NCBI GenBank assembly: GCA_015066565.1
Contig: SVOB01000001.1
Span: 620,001-684,000 of the forward strand
Source of the DNA: Oscillospiraceae bacterium
GTDB lineage: Bacteria > Bacillota > Clostridia > Oscillospirales > Acutalibacteraceae
DNA length: 64,000 nucleotides
Reading direction: 5' to 3'
Positions 1-64,000 of this stretch are shown here, piece by piece. Both the position numbers and the translations under genes were made by a program. The notes under the pieces were generated by a model. It was not told the origin of the DNA, did not search any database, and worked only from the letters and a program-made list of their open reading frames with translations. Within the stretch, counting starts at the first letter, position 1. Each line of letters starts with the position of its first letter.

Positions 1-13
1 TAATATTTTCCAT
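1..13 (-). CDS. Possible 5' end of a divergent gene leaving the window
   Basis: On the minus strand an ATG at position 13 opens a frame reading MENI before the window ends. It is preceded by an AGGGTG-type ribosome binding site six bases upstream and by a divergent promoter around positions 82-111. A gene divergent from a TetR regulator is often its target, frequently a transporter. Only four codons are visible, so the product cannot be named. Confidence 0.3.
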
Positions 14-807: not shown

Positions 808-836
808 TTGACAAATAAAAAAAGCGGGTGTAACAT
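808..836 (+). promoter_or_regulatory. Promoter of the pyrG operon leader
   Basis: TTGACA (808-813), a 17-base spacer and TAACAT (831-836). CGGGTG directly precedes the -10 and CACATA lies at the expected start site (about 840-845). The same arrangement occurs before glnN (62992-63020) and, in looser form, before the glutamate synthase operon (62934-62962), which suggests common control. Confidence 0.75.
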
Positions 837-853
837 TATCACATAAGTAAATG

Positions 854-992
854 AAGGCAAAGGCGTCTTTGGTGCTTTAGGTACCGAAGACGCCTTTTTT
901 ACTTATTATTTCAGCGAAACAGTTTAATTTCATACTACACAGGGCAAGGGCGTCATTGGTGGAAACATCAATGGTGCCCTTCACTCTTTTTT
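854..992 (+). promoter_or_regulatory. Two-hairpin leader of the pyrG operon (nitrogen-type leader family)
   Basis: Two tandem stem-loops share an entry motif. The first begins AAGGCAAAGGCGTCTTT (854-870) and closes at about 897 with a T run at 895-900, so it looks like an intrinsic terminator. The second begins AGGGCAAGGGCGTCATT (941-957) and closes at 981, with another T run at 986-992, just before the ribosome site of the 50-aa ORF. Both stems are about 13-15 bp. The entry motif recurs in the glnN and GOGAT leaders. I infer transcription attenuation linked to nitrogen or glutamine; the mechanism is unknown. The loops do not look like the AnnGnn hexaloops bound by ANTAR proteins. Confidence 0.65.
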
Positions 993-1005: not shown

Positions 1006-1158
1006 ATGGTAAAAGAAATCCCGATAATAGCGAGAATGGTTATTATCAACGAAAAGTTTGAGGATGAGGAATTCATCAGAACCGAAGAACAACTTTACAA
1101 TTATTCAGGCTCGGAGGAAAACTGCGAATACTGTCTTAACACTACTGCTTGGGATTAG
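1006..1158 (+). CDS. Small 50-aa protein with a CxxC motif upstream of pyrG
   Basis: An ATG at 1006 follows a strong AGGAGG site and opens a 50-codon frame ending in TAG at 1156-1158, ten bases before the pyrG ATG. The protein is acidic, starts MVKEIPIIARMVI and contains NCEYC (residues 39-43), a CxxC pair. I do not recognise a family. Its position between the hairpin leader and pyrG could make it a leader peptide affecting pyrG translation, or a small partner protein. Good ribosome site and tight packing support translation, but there is no homology evidence. Confidence 0.55.
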   Translation: MVKEIPIIARMVIINEKFEDEEFIRTEEQLYNYSGSEENCEYCLNTTAWD

Positions 1159-2778
<1,620 letters not shown>

Positions 2779-56348: not shown

Positions 56349-57773
56349 TTATTTTTCGCTGATTTTGGTTTCAAAGCGGTCCTTTGCCGTTTCATCCGGA
56401 ATTGATGTCGGGTATTCTCCGCCGAAGCAGGCAGTGCAGAAGCCCGTGTCCTCGCCGGCGAGATGTTTAACATTTTCAACGCTTAGATAGCCCAAAGAGG
56501 TTACACCGATTTCACCGGCGATTTCCTCAGTTTTCATTTTATTCGCAATAAGCACATCTGCGCTGTCAATATCGGTTCCGTAATAGCAGGGAGCTATAAA
56601 GGGCGGGGCGCTGACACGCATATGTATTTCCTTCGCACCTGCCTGCCAGAGCAGATTGGCAATATGCCGGCAGGTTGTGCCTCTCACGATTGAATCATCA
56701 ATAAGTACTATGCGCTTATCTTTTACTACTTCACGAATTGGATTTAATTTTATCCCGACACCCTGTTCACGGGAATCCTGCCCGGGAGAAATAAAAGTTC
56801 GTGCGATATATTTGTTTTTTGTAAATCCGATTGCATAGGGAATGCCCGATTCGTGCGAATAACCGATTGCCGCTTCAAGTCCTGAATCGGGCACGCCGAT
56901 GACTATATCAGCGTCAACCGGATGTTCCTTTGCGAGAAACCGCCCTGCTCTTTGCCTGCAAACACTTACGGATGCGCCGTCAATTACCGAGTCGGGACGG
57001 GCAAAATAGATATACTCAAAAACACAGAAGCGTTTCGGACAAAGCTTGCAATGAGAGTCATCAAAATGTAATCCGTCACAGTCAACAACTGCAATTTCAC
57101 CGGGTTTAAGATCCCTGACAAGCTTTGCGTCGACTGCGTCAAGCGCACAGGACTCCGAAGCGAAAACCACGGAGCCGTCGTCTGTCACTCCATAGCAGAG
57201 CGGTCGGAAGCCATGAGGATCACGCGCAGCGATCAGCTTTTGCGGAGAGCTTATTACGAGTGAGTAAGCGCCTTCGATTATCTCCATGGCTGCGCTGACT
57301 GCGCTCTCAATCGAACCCGTAACAAGTCTTTGCTGAACTATTATGTATGAAATAACCTCGGTGTCGGTAGTTGTGTGAAACAGTGATCCGCTTTCTTCAA
57401 GCATTCTTCTCAATTCAAACGAATTCGAAAGATTACCGTTATGACAAAGAGCCATTCTTCCGTTGTGATGGTTAACAAGAAGCGGCTGAATATTCTGAAG
57501 CATCTTACCGCCCGTCGTTGCATAGCGTACATGCCCGACTGCTATGTTGCCGTTGCCCAGAGAATTCAGTTTTTCCCTTGTAAAGACCTCGCTGACAAGT
57601 CCTTCGCCCTTGACATAGCGGAATACGCCGTCATCATTTATTGCAATTCCTGCGCTCTCCTGCCCTCTGTGCTGGAGAGCAAAAAGCGCATAATAAGTGA
57701 GTGACGCCAAATCGGAGGATTTTTTGCTGAATATTCCGAAAACTCCGCATTCTTCGTGTAACAGGTTAAACAT
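56349..57773 (-). CDS. purF: Amidophosphoribosyltransferase
   Basis: First enzyme of purine synthesis: PRPP plus glutamine gives phosphoribosylamine. 474 residues, with a propeptide and the N-terminal nucleophile (MFNLLHEECGVFGIF; Cys9 after processing). The PRPP site is IVLIDDSIVRGTTCRH (about 345-360). CPKRFCVFEYIYFARPDS and CTACFGGEYPTS supply the cysteines of the Bacillus-type [4Fe-4S] enzyme. It is the last gene of the leftward GOGAT cluster, 11 bases after the GXGXG-domain gene, so a purine gene is co-transcribed with nitrogen assimilation genes. Confidence 0.95.
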   Translation of the reverse strand: MFNLLHEECGVFGIFSKKSSDLASLTYYALFALQHRGQESAGIAINDDGVFRYVKGEGLVSEVFTREKLNSLGNGNIAVGHVRYATTGGKMLQNIQPLLVNHHNGRMALCHNGNLSNSFELRRMLEESGSLFHTTTDTEVISYIIVQQRLVTGSIESAVSAAMEIIEGAYSLVISSPQKLIAARDPHGFRPLCYGVTDDGSVVFASESCALDAVDAKLVRDLKPGEIAVVDCDGLHFDDSHCKLCPKRFCVFEYIYFARPDSVIDGASVSVCRQRAGRFLAKEHPVDADIVIGVPDSGLEAAIGYSHESGIPYAIGFTKNKYIARTFISPGQDSREQGVGIKLNPIREVVKDKRIVLIDDSIVRGTTCRHIANLLWQAGAKEIHMRVSAPPFIAPCYYGTDIDSADVLIANKMKTEEIAGEIGVTSLGYLSVENVKHLAGEDTGFCTACFGGEYPTSIPDETAKDRFETKISEK

Positions 57774-57784
57774 ATTGCCTCCTG

Positions 57785-58519
57785 TCAGTTGGATGTATAG
57801 AGATTTGCATACGGTCTTGAGGTAACCGGAGTAAGCTTTTTGAAGGGCTTACTCATTACCGCTTCATAGTCCTGACCGAAGTATTTGCAATAGTTTTTGA
57901 CATATTTTTTAAGCTCTTTTTTATCCTCGTCGGTAAGAGAGCTTATTTTAATATTCGGCGAAAGATTTTCTTTCGGAAAAGCGCCTCTTACATAGATTTT
58001 TCCTCCGTGCATACCGCTTGCGCAATGTGTACCGAAAAGCTTTTCGCCCCGCCTCATATTCAGACCGAGCAGAATAATAGTCCCGCCTGCCATATACTCG
58101 CCGAGGAAAGAACCTGCATTCTGACCGATAACAAGAACGGGCTTCATACTGCGGAATTCCTTCATATGAATACCGCCTCTGCAGCATACATTGTCACGGA
58201 TGTAAATCTCTCCGTCACGCATTCCGTAGCCGAGAGCATCACCCGAATGACCGTAAATGATAATCTGCCCGCCGCCCATTGTATTGCCGACGGCATCCTG
58301 ACCGTTTCCGTACAGCAGGATTTTTCCTCCGTTGAGGTAGCAGGCAAGGTCATTCCCCGCCGTACCGTGTATTTCAATGGTTTTTCCGCGGTCAAGCGCG
58401 CAACCGAGATAGCGCTGACCGTTTACATCCTCAACGGTAACCTTATTCTGTGAAAGAAGCTTTGTCTTTATATCACCGTTTACCTCTGCATATCTGCGAA
58501 GTCCTGCAATAACGTTCAT
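57785..58519 (-). CDS. Glutamate synthase GXGXG domain subunit
   Basis: 244 residues forming a right-handed beta-helix of the GXGXG type, which corresponds to the C-terminal domain of large glutamate synthase subunits. Typical repeats are GNDLACYLNGGKILLYGNGQ, AVGNTMGGGQIIIYGHSGD and CCRGGIHMKEFRSMKPVLVI. In single-chain GOGAT this part is fused; here it is a separate gene, the archaeal-type arrangement. It overlaps the FAD gene by four bases (ATGA). It helps form the tunnel between glutaminase and synthase sites. Confidence 0.9.
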   Translation of the reverse strand: MNVIAGLRRYAEVNGDIKTKLLSQNKVTVEDVNGQRYLGCALDRGKTIEIHGTAGNDLACYLNGGKILLYGNGQDAVGNTMGGGQIIIYGHSGDALGYGMRDGEIYIRDNVCCRGGIHMKEFRSMKPVLVIGQNAGSFLGEYMAGGTIILLGLNMRRGEKLFGTHCASGMHGGKIYVRGAFPKENLSPNIKISSLTDEDKKELKKYVKNYCKYFGQDYEAVMSKPFKKLTPVTSRPYANLYTSN

Positions 58520-59781
58520 GCAATATCTCCTTTCAGGCGTTTTTCTCTTTCTGACTTGTCAAACATAAAAAGAGAAGGCGTGTCAAAAATATCCGTTTTG
58601 ATTTCAGATAAATCGGTTTTGTTTTCGATAATGCTTGTGTATATACCTGCGTTTTCACTTGCATTTATAAGAACAAAGCCGACAAGATGGTTATTTTCAA
58701 ATATCAGCCGTTTATACTTGTCACCGCTTCTGACTGTTCTGTCAGAATACTGTTCGCCTACGGCATTGATAAGTCCGCAGGTGCATATTCGCAGTCCGTA
58801 AAAGTCAATGGCGTTTACGGAATATGCTCCGTTGAGCTTTATATCTCCGCCCGCCATTTGCGAACCTGCCGCCGTTCCCTGATAAACCGCATTCGGATAA
58901 AGGGCAATAACCCTTTTGCTGCCGTCAAGCATATCCACGCTGACGGTGCAGTCGCCTGCGGCATAAATGCTTTTGTCACTTGTCTGCATTGTTTCGGAAT
59001 CTGTAATAATACCTCTTTCGACTTTAAGACCTGCCTGTTCGGCAAGTTCTGTTTCGGGACGCACGCCGACTGCAAGCACAAGCATATCGCATTCAAGCTC
59101 TTTTTCGCTTTTGAGAACAACGGAGGTTATTCTGTTTGCCTTGCTTTTCGCTTCGGTAACGGTGTCGCCGAGATGAAAAACAATATGACCGTTTTCTTCA
59201 ATATACTTCTTTACGCTTCGAGCTGATTTTTCATCAAGTATAGACGGAAGTATTCTCGGCGAAAGCTCAACAACATCTACGCTTTTACAGATTTTTGAAA
59301 GTCCCTCGGCGGCCTTCATTCCGATAAGGCCGGCACCGATAACAACAGCTTTTGTATTGTTATTTGCTTTTGTCTTAACTGCCTTTGCAGAGGCCAGATC
59401 GAGAAAGGTAAATGCGTTAACCTTACCGTTTACATTCTTCATTGGCGGAACAAACGGCTTAGAGCCCGTGCATATACAAAGCTTATCGTAGGAATATGCT
59501 TTTCTGCCCGCTTTAACCGTTTTGTTCTTTTTGTCTATTGACCTTACAGGCGCGTTTGTAACTATATCAATTCCTTTTTCTTTATAGTAATTCGGCGAAC
59601 GCAGATACATATCGTTTTCTTTTACTGCGCCCTTGAGATAATAGCTGATTGACGGTCTGCTGTAAGGAAGATAAGCTTCCCTTGTAAGAACGGTAATACT
59701 GCCTTCTGAGTCCTCTTTCCTTATTTGTTCGGCGCAGGCAAGACCTGCCGCAGAGGCGCCGATAATGATATATTTTTTCAT
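58516..59781 (-). CDS. FAD-dependent NAD(P)H oxidoreductase of the GOGAT cluster
   Basis: 421 residues. The FAD site is MKKYIIIGASAAGLACAEQI, the NAD(P) site AVVIGAGLIGMKAAEGLSKI (about 146-165), and the second FAD motif SIYAAGDCTVSVDML (about 270-284). It resembles nitrite/rubredoxin reductase flavoproteins. In this context it should pass electrons from NAD(P)H to the neighbouring ferredoxin and synthase subunits, replacing GltD. It overlaps genes at both ends. Confidence 0.85.
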   Translation of the reverse strand: MKKYIIIGASAAGLACAEQIRKEDSEGSITVLTREAYLPYSRPSISYYLKGAVKENDMYLRSPNYYKEKGIDIVTNAPVRSIDKKNKTVKAGRKAYSYDKLCICTGSKPFVPPMKNVNGKVNAFTFLDLASAKAVKTKANNNTKAVVIGAGLIGMKAAEGLSKICKSVDVVELSPRILPSILDEKSARSVKKYIEENGHIVFHLGDTVTEAKSKANRITSVVLKSEKELECDMLVLAVGVRPETELAEQAGLKVERGIITDSETMQTSDKSIYAAGDCTVSVDMLDGSKRVIALYPNAVYQGTAAGSQMAGGDIKLNGAYSVNAIDFYGLRICTCGLINAVGEQYSDRTVRSGDKYKRLIFENNHLVGFVLINASENAGIYTSIIENKTDLSEIKTDIFDTPSLFMFDKSEREKRLKGDIA

Positions 59782-60221
59782 TATTCTGCACCTCCCAGAT
59801 CAATATAAACAAGTGCGTGGTTAGGGCAGTTCTTAACACATGCAGGTTCGTCCTCATCCTGACACAAATCGCACTTAACGGCAAATTTGCCCGTTTTTAT
59901 ACAGCCGAAGGGACAGACGGAAAGGCAGGTCATGCAGCCGATGCATTTTTTCTCGTTGACTGAAACTATACCCGTTTTTTCATCCTTTGTCATAGCTCCC
60001 GTTATGCACGCCTGAACGCATTTCGGATTGTCACAGTGACGGCAGTTGACAGCCGCCGAAAGCATTTTATCTCCGTAAACCGTTATTCTTGAAACGGGTG
60101 CGGGATTTTCATATTTATTAGCCTTAAGCACATCCTTCGTCTTTGAATGAGCCGTTTTGCAGTAAACCTCGCAAAGACGGCAGTTAAGACAGAGTTCTTC
60201 TTTTGCATATACTTTTTTCAT
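59781..60221 (-). CDS. Polyferredoxin subunit of the GOGAT cluster
   Basis: 146 residues rich in Cys in HycB/DmsB-like spacing: CLNCRLCEVYCKTAHSK, CRHCDNPKCVQACITGA, CIGCMTCLSVCPFGCIK and CDLCQDEDEPACVKNCPNHA. Four Cys clusters can hold up to four [4Fe-4S] centres. It probably wires the FAD protein to the synthase subunit. Start and stop lie directly between those two genes (one-base overlap; 12-base gap). Confidence 0.9.
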   Translation of the reverse strand: MKKVYAKEELCLNCRLCEVYCKTAHSKTKDVLKANKYENPAPVSRITVYGDKMLSAAVNCRHCDNPKCVQACITGAMTKDEKTGIVSVNEKKCIGCMTCLSVCPFGCIKTGKFAVKCDLCQDEDEPACVKNCPNHALVYIDLGGAE

Positions 60222-60233
60222 ACTGCCGTCCTC

Positions 60234-61739
60234 CTATTCTCCTGCATGCATAATGCCAAGTATTTCAAGCTCTTTTTCGCTTAAACCGATACCCCTGAGC
60301 ATCAGTCTGTTACCGCGAAGCGAATCGACGGAGTTAATACCCATACCGCCCATAATCTCTTTTATTTCGTGGTTCCAGGCGTTTATAAGGTTTTCAACTC
60401 TTATGTGCATTATTTCGGGATTGAGGCGTTTCGTAAGCTCGGGTCTCTGTGTAGCTATGCCCCAGTTACATTTGCCCGTATTACAGGTCTGACACATATG
60501 ACAGCCCATCGCTATAAGCGGAGCGGAGGCACAGTAGCATGCGTCTGCGCCCAAAGCAATCGCCTTTACTATATCAGCGGAGCATCTGAACGAGCCGGCA
60601 GCAATAAGCGAAATATTTGAGCGTATGCCCTCGTCACGAAGACGCTGATCCGCAGCCGCAAGCGCAAGCTCAATCGGTATTCCGACATTGTCTCTTATTC
60701 TTGTCGGAGCTGCGCCGGTACCGCCCCTGAAACCGTCGATTGCAATTATATCGGCACCTGCTCTCGCACAGCCCGAAGCAATCGCCGCGACATTGTGAAC
60801 GGCGGCAATTTTAACCGAAACCGGCTTTTTGTTGTCGGTTGCCTGCTTTATCGACCAGATAAGCTGGCGCAGGTCCTCAATGGAATAAATGTCATGATGC
60901 GGCGCAGGCGAAATTGCGTCGCTGCCCTCGGGAATCATGCGTGCGTTCGAAACCTCGACATTAACCTTTTCTCCCGGAAGATGTCCGCCTATGCCGGGCT
61001 TTGCGCCCTGACCGATTTTTATTTCAACAAATCGTGAATTATTAAGATAATCCTTGTGAACGCCGAATCTTCCCGAAGCAACCTGAACAATTGCACAATC
61101 GGTATAGTCAGCCAAATCCGGATGCAGACCGCCTTCACCTGTATTGAAGAGAGTGCCGAGGTTTTTCGCCGCCATAGCAAGTGATTTCTGCGCATTTAAG
61201 CTTATTGAGCCGAAGCTCATCGCCGAGAACATAATCGGAGTTTCTATTATTACCTGAGGCGGCATTTCAACAGTCGATTTGCCCTTTTTCTCAACAGTTA
61301 TCTTTTCGGGCTTTCTGCCCAGAATCGTTCTTATTTCCATCGGCTCACGAAGAGGATCGATGGACGGGTTTGTTACCTGAGAAGCGTTAAGCAGGATTTT
61401 GTCCCAGTATATCGGATACGGCTTAGGCGTTCCCATTCCCGAAAGCAAAACTCCTCCCGTTTCTGCCTGACGACAGATTTCCTGCTGATACTGAGGCGTC
61501 CAGTTGGCATTTTCTCTGTAATCGCAGACATACTTTTCAATCCGTAATGCCCTTGTTGGACAAAGATCAACGCAGCGGTGACACGCAACGCAGTTTTCGG
61601 AATCCGAAACAACGGTTTTTCCGTCGTCATCAAAAAAATGACATTCATTGGAGCACTGACGCACACAGCAGCCGCAGTCAATACAGAGATTTTTGTCACG
61701 GACTACCGTAAATCTTCGGGGGATGTAGTTAACCGACAT
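60234..61739 (-). CDS. Glutamate synthase FMN domain subunit with N-terminal ferredoxin
   Basis: 501 residues from the ATG at 61739, nine bases after GGAGG; the longer frame to 61778 overlaps the previous gene. Two ferredoxin motifs open it (LCIDCGCCVRQCSNECHFF, CVACHRCVDLCPTRALRI). The synthase barrel follows, with MFSAMSFGSISLNAQKSLAM, AVHNVAAIASGCARAGADII, and the 3Fe-4S/FMN region GCHMCQTCNTGKCNWGIATQ. It carries out the 2-oxoglutarate to glutamate step. It starts one base after the upstream glutaminase gene. Confidence 0.93.
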   Translation of the reverse strand: MSVNYIPRRFTVVRDKNLCIDCGCCVRQCSNECHFFDDDGKTVVSDSENCVACHRCVDLCPTRALRIEKYVCDYRENANWTPQYQQEICRQAETGGVLLSGMGTPKPYPIYWDKILLNASQVTNPSIDPLREPMEIRTILGRKPEKITVEKKGKSTVEMPPQVIIETPIMFSAMSFGSISLNAQKSLAMAAKNLGTLFNTGEGGLHPDLADYTDCAIVQVASGRFGVHKDYLNNSRFVEIKIGQGAKPGIGGHLPGEKVNVEVSNARMIPEGSDAISPAPHHDIYSIEDLRQLIWSIKQATDNKKPVSVKIAAVHNVAAIASGCARAGADIIAIDGFRGGTGAAPTRIRDNVGIPIELALAAADQRLRDEGIRSNISLIAAGSFRCSADIVKAIALGADACYCASAPLIAMGCHMCQTCNTGKCNWGIATQRPELTKRLNPEIMHIRVENLINAWNHEIKEIMGGMGINSVDSLRGNRLMLRGIGLSEKELEILGIMHAGE

Positions 61740-61740
61740 A

Positions 61741-62841
61741 TTATTCATCCTCCTTCTCGTCGATTTCAAGCGGAACAAAAACGGGGTCTGCGCCGCTTAC
61801 CGACCATACCTTTTCGGGATTGGGACAGATTATACGAATGGCGCTTTCCTCGCTTGCGAAGTATGCTCTGTCGCCCTTGACAGCAGCCGTAAGGGAACGA
61901 AGCTTGAGTCTGTCATTTATGGCAAGCAAACCCTTGTTTGAACCGAGAATAACCGAAAACGGACCGTTGACAAGAGCGCCGCTGTAAATGGCACGGAGAT
62001 TGGTGAAATACTCCTTTTTTACATCATCCATTCTGTCAATTTCATCCCATTCGGGGGCCGTCAGAACATCAGCCGCAACATTTGCGGGCAGACCGTGATG
62101 GCGTATAAGGTGGTCAAACAGGTAAGTGATTACCTCGGTGTCCGTCTGCATTGTGCATTTGTAACCGAACTGCTCAATATACCTTCTGTTGGCGTCATAG
62201 CTTGATATTTCGCCGTTGTGAACTATTGACCAGTCAAGAATATTGAACGGATGTGCGCCGCCCCACCAGCCGGGAGTGTTTGTCGGGAAACGGCCGTGAG
62301 CCGTCCAGAGATATGCGTCATACTTGTCGAGCATATAAAATTCACCGACATCCTCGGGGTAGCCTACGGCTTTGAAGCAGCCCATATTTTTGCCCGACGA
62401 AAAAATGTATGCGCCGTCGTACGCCGCATTTATTTTTGTTACGCACTGGACAACATATTCGCCCTCGTCAAGACGGGAATTCTTCATACGCACACGGTTG
62501 ACTCTGCCGAAATAGCGCCAGATATCCGGACCGTTGCTGATTGACGCAACTTTTTTCGTCGGAATCCTCTCGGCAACGTCTATATTGAAATGCTTGAACA
62601 GAAACTCTTCGCATTTCTGATGGGCTTCCTTGTTTTCAAAGAAGATATGAAATGCGTATTCGTCCTTGTGCTCAGGATATATTCCGTAAGCCGCAAAGCC
62701 GCCTCCGAGTCCATTGGAACGGTCGTGCATGAGCGCAATCGATTTAATGATTTCAGAGCCGTTGATAAGTCCGCCCTTTCGGTCGATAATCGCCGCTATT
62801 GCGCACCCGGACGGAATTCTTACCTGTCCCTCCTTTAACAT
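61741..62841 (-). CDS. Glutamate synthase glutaminase subunit (class II amidotransferase)
   Basis: 366 residues, first gene of the leftward operon. The N-terminal nucleophile is in MLKEGQVRIPSGCAIAAIID, where cleavage after Gly12 would expose Cys13. The chain matches the class II glutamine amidotransferase of split GOGAT (TAHGRFPTNTPGWWGGAHPF, SIVHNGEISSYDANRRYIEQ). It frees ammonia from glutamine and passes it to the FMN subunit. A terminator-like leader precedes it (62872-62923). Confidence 0.9.
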   Translation of the reverse strand: MLKEGQVRIPSGCAIAAIIDRKGGLINGSEIIKSIALMHDRSNGLGGGFAAYGIYPEHKDEYAFHIFFENKEAHQKCEEFLFKHFNIDVAERIPTKKVASISNGPDIWRYFGRVNRVRMKNSRLDEGEYVVQCVTKINAAYDGAYIFSSGKNMGCFKAVGYPEDVGEFYMLDKYDAYLWTAHGRFPTNTPGWWGGAHPFNILDWSIVHNGEISSYDANRRYIEQFGYKCTMQTDTEVITYLFDHLIRHHGLPANVAADVLTAPEWDEIDRMDDVKKEYFTNLRAIYSGALVNGPFSVILGSNKGLLAINDRLKLRSLTAAVKGDRAYFASEESAIRIICPNPEKVWSVSGADPVFVPLEIDEKEDE

Positions 62842-62871: not shown

Positions 62872-62962
62872 AAAAAAAGAGCCCGTCCCATACAGCCAAG
62901 TGTATGGACGAACTCCATTGCTCATTTGTGTGTATTATATTCCCGATTTTTTTAAAAATCAA
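62872..62962 (-). promoter_or_regulatory. Promoter and terminator-hairpin leader of the GOGAT-purF operon
   Basis: Leftward -35 TTGATT (62962-62957), 17-base spacer, -10 TATAAT (62939-62934); CGGGAA lies just before the -10 and CACACA near the start. The leader opens GAGCAATGGAGTTCGTCC (62923-62906) and folds with GGACGGGCTC into a long stem (62914-62879), followed by seven U residues (62878-62872), 31 bases before the ATG. That is a complete terminator in the 5' leader, so attenuation is likely. The opening motif resembles the glnN and pyrG leaders (GGCAATGGCGTC). Confidence 0.7.
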
Positions 62963-62991: not shown

Positions 62992-63020
62992 TTGACAAAC
63001 CTTTGCTTCGGGTGTAAACT
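62992..63020 (+). promoter_or_regulatory. Promoter of the glnN leader
   Basis: TTGACA (62992-62997), 17-base spacer, TAAACT (63015-63020). CGGGTG sits next to the -10 and TTTTTCACATA at the start region, matching the pyrG leader promoter. Confidence 0.75.
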
Positions 63021-63036
63021 TTTTCACATATTGATA

Positions 63037-63215
63037 GAGGCAATGGCGTCTTTGAGATTTCTCAAAGGCGCCTCTCTCATTAAAACGGAATATTAAGGCA
63101 AAGGAGTCTTTGAGCACTATTCTCAAAGACTCCTTTCTCTTTATAATAAACTTATAAAAGGCAATGGCGTCTTTGGCGATTATTTATCACCGAAGGCGCC
63201 TCTTCTCTTGTTTTT
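63037..63215 (+). promoter_or_regulatory. Three tandem hairpins in the glnN leader
   Basis: Hairpin A: GAGGCAATGGCGTC.. with stem 63045-63072. Hairpin B: AAGGCAAAGGAGTC.. with stem 63100-63136, a perfect 15 bp. Hairpin C: AAAGGCAATGGCGTC.. with stem 63166-63200. Each starts with GGCAAnGGxGTC and is followed by a pyrimidine-rich tract. They end about 30 bases before the AGGAGG site of glnN. The pyrG leader has two such hairpins and the GOGAT leader one. The role as a nitrogen-status attenuator is inferred. Confidence 0.7.
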
Positions 63216-63244: not shown

Positions 63245-64000
63245 ATGAAAACCGTAACAGATTATTTCGGCAGCAAGGTCTTTGACGACAGAGTTATGAA
63301 ATCCATGCTCTCCGCAGAGGTTTATAATTCGCTCAAAAAGACAATTGACGAGGGCACAGAGCTTAATATAGGCGTTGCCAATGCCGTTGCAATAGCTATG
63401 AAGGATTGGGCGGTTTCACAGGGCGCAACTCATTTTACTCACTGGTTCCAGCCACTGACAGGCATTACAGCGGAAAAGCATGACAGCTTTATCGCTCCCT
63501 CTCCCGATGGCGGAGTAATAATGGAATTTTCCGGTAAGGAACTTATAAAGGGCGAGCCCGACGCATCCTCTTTCCCGTCAGGCGGTCTGAGAGCTACATT
63601 TGAAGCAAGGGGCTATACTGCATGGGACCCGACATCTTATGCGTTTATCAAAGGAAAAACGCTTTGTATTCCGACTGCCTTCTGTTCATACGGCGGTCAT
63701 GCGCTTGATAAAAAAACACCGTTGCTTCGTTCGATGGAAGCTCTCAACAAGCAGGCACTGAGAATAGTTAAGCTTTTCGGAAACGATGATGTAAAAAGAG
63801 TAGTAAGCTCCGTAGGTCCGGAACAGGAATATTTCCTTATTACCAAGGAAGTTTATGATCAGAGACCGGATTTGCGTTTTACGGGCAGGACCCTTTTCGG
63901 CGCAAAATCACCGAAGGGTCAGGAGATGGATGACCACTATTTCGGTGTTATCAAGCCGAGAGTAGCTGCATATATGGAAGAGCTTAATGATGAACTCTGG
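63245..64000 (+). CDS. glnN: Type III glutamine synthetase (5' part)
   Basis: The first 252 residues; the gene leaves the window at the right edge and should reach about 700. Start [20 protein letters not shown], then [20 protein letters not shown] with the GSIII-specific FTHWFQP motif, [20 protein letters not shown], and [12 protein letters not shown] (metal-binding Glu pair). GSIII condenses ammonia and glutamate to glutamine in many gut Clostridia and Bacteroides. AGGAGG lies eight or so bases before the ATG. Divergent from the glutamate synthase operon: together the two units form the GS-GOGAT cycle. Confidence 0.95.

Follow-up and report, generated by a model that had tools for sequence, protein, structure and literature searches.

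Leaders of glutamine-linked genes in an Oscillospiraceae bacterium as candidate single-hexaloop ANTAR antiterminators

What kind of regulatory device stands in front of the genes for CTP synthase, glutamate synthase and glutamine synthetase in this genome, and do the three have it in common? A sequence-only reading of the window, the whole stretch of 64,000 nucleotides analysed here, had seen matching promoters and hairpins ahead of these genes and had proposed a shared nitrogen regulon, at the level of RNA or promoter, that was possibly not described before. On the sequence evidence presented below, these leaders are very probably transcription antiterminators of the ANTAR type, acting with a NitR-like protein made beside glutamine synthetase. 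The gene identities given in that reading agree with Pfam. CTP synthase is encoded by pyrG (CTP_synth_N, GATase) at 1159..2778 on the plus strand, its start perhaps being the ATG at 1168. The split glutamate synthase (GOGAT) operon at 56349..62841 on the minus strand encodes a GATase domain protein, an FMN/glutamate synthase protein, an Fe-S protein, a pyridine nucleotide oxidoreductase, a GXGXG protein and, as its last gene, a PurF-like amidotransferase. The type III glutamine synthetase gene glnN (GSIII_N) occupies 63245..64000 on the plus strand, its 3′ end lying open at the window edge; the full-length product of 698 aa (L033) matches GSIII_N, Gln-synt_C-ter and Gln-synt_C.

The three leaders share the promoter layout that had been noticed in them, namely a TTGACA or TTGATT -35 box, a 17-base spacer and a -10 box. 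As read from the sequence, the pyrG promoter lies at 808..836 on the plus strand (-35 TTGACA 808-813, -10 TAACAT 831-836), the GOGAT promoter at 62934..62962 on the minus strand (TTGATT, TATAAT) and the glnN promoter at 62992..63020 on the plus strand (TTGACA, TAAACT). We also recovered all six hairpins of the earlier count, of which the pyrG leader has two, the glnN leader three and the GOGAT leader, on the minus strand, one. Each folds better than its 200 dinucleotide shuffles, 0 of which equalled it (z from -4.2 to -7.8), and each starts, as claimed, with GGCAAnGGCGTC or a variant of it. A feature absent from the earlier note is that all six are intrinsic terminators, with long G+C-rich stems and T-rich tails (broken by C in glnN units 1 and 2). 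In the pyrG leader the terminators lie at 859..897 (unit 1) and 946..981 (unit 2, from folding against shuffles), both on the plus strand. Sequence together with folding against shuffles places the others at 62878..62916 (GOGAT, minus strand) and at 63045..63072, 63100..63136 and 63166..63200 (glnN units 1 to 3, plus strand).

The same bases have a second possible partner. GGCAAnGGCGTC constitutes the loop and 3′ arm of a smaller hairpin as well as the 5′ arm of the terminator, which can pair upstream instead; the two structures are mutually exclusive. The small hairpin has a loop of the form AAnGGM and a closing C:G pair, the signature of ANTAR antiterminators. In pyrG unit 1 it reads TGAAGGC-AAAGGC-GTCTTTG and spans 852..871 on the plus strand, with arms of 7 bp (852-858 and 865-871), the loop AAAGGC at 859-864 and a folding energy of -3.6 kcal/mol; its alternative is the terminator at 859-897, which overlaps its loop and 3′ arm. 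The hexaloop hairpin of pyrG unit 2 is weak, with 3 bp (943..954, plus strand; loop AAGGGC 946-951). That of the GOGAT unit has 6 bp (ATGAGC-AATGGA-GTTCGT, 62908..62925, minus strand), and those of glnN units 1 to 3, on the plus strand, have 7 bp at 63035..63054 (loop AATGGC 63042-63047), 5 bp at 63095..63110 (loop AAAGGA 63100-63105) and 6 bp at 63157..63174 (loop AATGGC 63163-63168).

At our search threshold, the genome encodes exactly one ANTAR-domain protein, and its gene lies directly downstream of glnA, about 24 kb from the window, a position beside glnA that we take to be the NitR arrangement. The C-terminal ANTAR domain (PF03861) scored 51.5 bits against a cut-off of 27.3. Residues 22-203 of 206 align with chain 1s8n, a "putative antiterminator" and presumably Rv1626, at E 1.2e-12; alignments with EutV (6wsh) and AmiR (1qo0) were weaker. 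The receiver carries an Asn at what we assume to be the position of the phosphorylated Asp of the receiver family. Among 80 relatives (the best of 562 confirmed matches), 77 have Asn at this residue, 2 have His, 1 has Gln and 0 have Asp, and the neighbouring pocket positions were mostly Ser or Ala; a separate set of 14 proteins, our own included, had Asn in 12, Asp in 1 and Leu in 1. Since the receiver does not have the phosphorylated Asp, a signal arriving by a phosphorelay of the usual kind appears unlikely from sequence. In 76 of the 80 loci glnA lay at most 300 bp upstream of nitR, and the remaining 4 were at contig edges.

Three further units were found outside the window, before glnA-nitR, gdhA and guaA, by a pattern search followed by folding of 30 of the 34 matches, keeping those with a terminator behind. 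The RGCAANGGMGTY motif alone was rejected as a specific marker, with 34 matches in this genome against 23 for the reversed pattern. The identities of gdhA and guaA are supported by Pfam; for glnA, the best NCBIfam model was type I GlnA at 344.8 bits, under its cut-off of 429. The genome has 9 units, all at glutamine genes. All 9 have A1 and G4 in the loop, letters already contained in the pattern that found the three units beyond the window; the hexaloop hairpin has 5-8 bp in 7 of the 9, 3 bp in pyrG unit 2 and 2 bp in the guaA unit. A covariance model built from these 9 units, which match it by construction, returned besides them 3 antisense echoes, with E between 1.2e-5 and 0.17, and four further matches at E of at least 0.29.

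Does the arrangement recur? A scan by regulator alignment gave 562 confirmed matches, the best 80 of which provided our nitR loci; almost all of these come from metagenome-assembled Clostridia, many of them of gut and rumen. Our unit finder, which fixes A1 and G4 of the loop, demands an overlapping terminator and a stem of at least 5 bp, at least 3 of them Watson-Crick, and misses some units (e.g. the first units in L203 and L204), returned 120 units in these loci, 106 of them with a loop starting AA. Eighty-six lie at most 400 nt upstream of glnN (50), GOGAT (17), gdhA (13), glnA (4), pyrG (1) or a purF-like gene (1); antisense echoes account for 2 of the 120, one of which (L194) is within the 86. 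One of the loci with a unit ahead of glnN is L235, from the cultured gut bacterium Anaerotignum lactatifermentans. Among the remaining 34, 14 have another loop start and look like chance; of three that we inspected, the one in L227 stands before an ammonium transporter-PII fusion, the one in L237 before an asparagine synthetase-like gene and the one in L207 before an ATP synthase A gene. Starting from terminators, a hexaloop hairpin was present in 45 of 59 in target-gene leaders versus 6 of 171 elsewhere, where shuffled upstream sequence gives expectations of 1.9 and 1.0, respectively. Three of these 6 are the L207, L227 and L237 units, and several of the 14 failing leader terminators still contain GGCAAnGGCGTC.

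Removal of 20 opposite-strand overlaps and 6 matches with insertions from the 148 covariance-model matches in the 80 loci left 122. Their loops have A1 in 121 and G4 in all 122, as picked by a model that contains these letters, and the closing C:G pair is found in 81 of 83 distinct rows. In these 83 rows 92% of the first six stem pairs are standard, compared with 40-57% when slid; shuffling whole arms 500 times gave no more than 83% and on average 79%. The alignment was fitted to the terminator, not to the hexaloop hairpin, and the percentages are not a probability because the rows are related. The stem pairs are 86% standard in the 32 rows with a 5′ arm other than AAGGC, and the arms differ by leader (GOGAT ATGAGC/GTTCAT versus glnN AAAGGC/GTCTTT).

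The RNA and the protein also occur together. In a sample of 117 genomes of the order, 41 have an RNA match at E <=1e-5, and an ANTAR protein is encoded in 39 of these 41 versus 34 of the 76 without a match (Fisher p 1.9e-8, not corrected for phylogeny); the two genomes with an RNA match and no ANTAR match are G174 and G180. Within the family (100 genomes), the same threshold gave an RNA match in 22 of 62 genomes with ANTAR versus 2 of 38 without (Fisher p 5e-4), counted as model matches, with part of the 22 inspected for the hexaloop. The matches in the latter two genomes, G052 and G027, proved on inspection to be plain terminators, and the ANTAR-positive G035 had no convincing unit behind its matches at L110 and L111. 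At E <=0.01, 49 of the 100 family genomes match, the weaker rows being left out of the co-occurrence count; real-looking units were seen at L118 and L119 in G083, a genome 81% complete and without an ANTAR match. The motif is found again in relatives, mainly at glutamine or ammonium genes and alongside the ANTAR protein, as the check proposed by the sequence-only reading had asked, and recurrence, gene association and ANTAR co-occurrence strongly support its idea of an RNA-level regulon tied to glutamine.

ANTAR antiterminator RNAs have been described for eut of Enterococcus, nasF and amiE (Ramesh 2012, PMC3369931; Walshe 2022, PMC8934654), and the present leaders resemble them in a hexaloop with A1 and G4, in a hairpin placed over the terminator's 5′ arm and in the nitrogen genes behind it. 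RNAs selected by NasR have the same A1, G4 and closing C:G (PMC7496416), and A1 and G4 are common to EutV targets (PMC8934654); unlike EutV, the present ANTAR protein has no phosphorylatable Asp (PMC3369931, PMC8934654). In Clostridium saccharobutylicum, NitR, an ANTAR protein, reportedly induces GS/GOGAT genes by antitermination under nitrogen limitation (PMC6316151); in its passages at hand, that account makes no mention of pyrG, gdhA or glnN as targets, unlike the present regulon. For Clo1313_2030 of Clostridium thermocellum, encoded in an ammonia-assimilation gene cluster, a role as antiterminator was suggested from likeness to nitR (PMC4676874); ANTAR is joined there to ammonia assimilation as here, but the part of that account at hand contains no RNA element. 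The ANTAR regulon of Desulfotomaculum acetoxidans comprises at least 13 attenuators in six transcription units of nitrogen genes (PMC3369931), with several attenuators per genome as in our case, but found by a dual-hairpin model. The regulon proposed at the outset was therefore right but not new, because ANTAR control of nitrogen genes and NitR had already been published (PMC3369931, PMC6316151); what stands of "possibly not described" is the single-hexaloop architecture and targets of the pyrG type. What sets the present case apart is the 5′-terminal single hexaloop, its breadth and the pseudo-receiver regulator, whereas the principle and the link to nitrogen were known. In the titles and passages of open-licence literature, we found no report of the single-hexaloop architecture or of ANTAR control of pyrG. 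Two published searches for ANTAR targets demanded two hairpins (PMC3369931, PMC8164766), and a single-hexaloop architecture would therefore be missed by them.

In contrast to published ANTAR RNAs with their P1 and P2 hairpins (PMC3369931), the leaders described here have one hexaloop, at the predicted 5′ end. In 55 of 71 operons the hairpin begins no more than 14 nt, and mostly 7-8 nt, after the end of a sigma70-like promoter, against 0.5 expected from single-base shuffles; promoters were scored by their matching bases, 12 at most, with 0.5 added for a 17-base spacer, and had to reach 10. The remaining 16 include second units and units that lie behind another gene. Of 28 units in a family set, 14 had a recognised promoter, and in all of these the loop-closing GC lay 10-14 nt from the -10 box. 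Because the promoter ends just before it, the first hairpin would lie roughly where the RNA begins, leaving no room for P1. These leaders thus fall outside the definition of Ramesh 2012, which consists of P1, P2 and a short linker (PMC3369931), and contain, as far as sequence motifs go, the single hexaloop of the minimal definition of Walshe 2022 (PMC8934654). Successive units could alternatively serve one dimer as P1 and P2, i.e. as canonical dual-hexaloop control, and tandem units do exist, two in 15 of the 71 operons (one of these being the antisense echo in L194) and three at glnN in this genome. We regard this as improbable: 56 of the 71 operons have one detected unit, by a finder that misses some; in the two-unit operons, echo left out, a full terminator lies between loops that are 61-142 nt apart, as against a eut linker of 5-12 nt (PMC3369931); and a P1-like hairpin with A1 and G4 within 45 nt upstream of the first unit was found in 0 of 71, where single-base shuffles would give 2.4.

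Could the regulon reside in the promoters instead, with the hairpins as ordinary terminators? The CGGG that had been reported as touching the -10 box is indeed there, two bases ahead of it in the three promoters of the window, but it is not general in relatives (4 of 51 unit promoters versus 3 of 79 other promoter-like matches). A modest preference at most remains for GG[TC]G immediately upstream of the -10 box, in 21 of 51 unit promoters versus 9 of 79 others (relatives L164-L243), the 51 being non-independent because gdhA and glnN promoters may share descent. The promoters of the leaders are ordinary sigma70-like ones near the consensus, and promoter-level control would leave the pairing of the hexaloop stem unexplained; the promoter-level half of the original proposal did not hold up, and we consider it highly improbable. 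Many unit promoters with GG[TC]G belong to gdhA and glnN (cf. window 808-836 and 62992-63020). Some other leader device, such as a glutamine riboswitch, a T-box, a PyrR site or a CsrA site, might be suggested by a sub-threshold PyrR match at the pyrG leader (19.6 bits versus a cut-off of 54) and by GGA within some loops. Against it, a search of the window for named RNA families gave 0 Rfam matches at gathering score, with no family reaching its cut-off; of the 122 matches, 103 have C at loop position 6 and 3 have the A that gives GGA; the presence of the RNA follows the ANTAR gene; and the leaders are probably too short for an aptamer. Such a device is scarcely credible here. When the Rfam search was extended below threshold up to E 10, its best match was to psm_mec_RNA, at E 9.5e-5 and 43.7 bits (cut-off 85); it lies opposite the glnN leader, on the other strand, and we take it as chance.

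The reading as ANTAR-type antiterminators has evidence against it as well. Induction through EutV needed the P1 stem-loop and a suitable linker (PMC3369931), and NasR binds a single hairpin weakly, at ~12 uM (PMC7496416), whereas no P1 was detected here. According to Walshe 2022, the minimal ANTAR site is one hexaloop, yet the EutV dimer must touch both hexaloops in turn to stop termination, and single sites are expected where a transcribing polymerase sets no time limit, unlike in these leaders (PMC8934654). The hairpins of pyrG unit 2 and the guaA unit are weak, units recur poorly at guaA and pyrG in other loci (see below), and the order sample includes 73 genomes with ANTAR, of which 34 lack an RNA match at E <=1e-5. 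What the sequences themselves display are the mutually exclusive hairpins, the signature of loop and closing pair, the covariation, the promoter position, the gene association, the co-occurrence with ANTAR and the lack of a detected P1; the start site, the binding, the direction of control and the nitrogen signal are inferred.

As an ANTAR-type antiterminator, each leader would operate as follows. RNA polymerase would start about 0-10 nt ahead of the hexaloop hairpin, and without active NitR-like protein the nascent RNA would fold into the terminator and transcription would end ahead of the gene. Under a shortage of nitrogen or glutamine, the ANTAR protein made beside glnA would bind the AAnGGM hexaloop and hold the small hairpin, thereby withholding the 5′ arm of the terminator, and the polymerase could then read through into pyrG, GOGAT, glnN, gdhA and glnA-nitR. 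The sensor may be a contact with the neighbouring glutamine synthetase, similar to that made by TnrA of Bacillus (PMC6316151). Beyond these loci, we see an evenly balanced case for a widespread second mode of ANTAR control, in which a phosphorylation-independent, glutamine-synthetase-linked protein would act on a single hexaloop in the first ~20 nt, without a P1 loading hairpin, and which in some gut Clostridia would have been extended from ammonium assimilation to glutamine-consuming synthesis of nucleotides and asparagine (pyrG, purC, asnB). The leaders form a large natural set of candidate single-hexaloop attenuators, bearing on the question of Walshe 2022 as to how far single hexaloops are used (PMC8934654), and outline a candidate glutamine regulon of Clostridia from gut and rumen, with a signal that probably does not arrive by a phosphorelay through the usual Asp.

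How far do pyrG and guaA belong to it? The guaA unit of this genome fails the unit finder, and a unit was found at 0 of 29 other guaA loci (best 30 family loci, our own included). A unit belonging to pyrG itself was seen in 3 of 30 loci (best 30 of 70 family pyrG matches, our own included), compared with 2 of 300 shuffled upstream sequences, and one more is present in L165 among the 80 nitR loci. The link is patchy in relatives; in this genome, where unit 1 is a good unit and unit 2 a weak one, pyrG is most likely in the regulon. Elsewhere pyrG lies just downstream of nitR (L099, L132) or downstream of glnN (L095), and in G018 two units precede purC, with guaA and pyrG farther along on the same contig and strand. 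Between pyrG unit 2 and pyrG in the window, a 50-codon open frame (1006-1158, plus strand) with an AGGAGG ribosome-binding site ends at the pyrG start. The gene after the unit that follows gdhA (unit at L032 5074-5127, plus strand) varies, being guaA in this genome, pyrG in L164 and glnN in L094, L095, L100, L105, L112 and L113. Further genes with a hexaloop-terminator unit ahead of them in relatives are purC, asparagine synthetase-like genes, those for diaminopimelate epimerase and a class III aminotransferase, ammonium transporter-PII fusions and, in one case, an ATP synthase A gene (L096, L126, L237, L101, L116, L133, L118, L128, L227 and L207; the gene in L126 is named solely from its likeness to that in L096).
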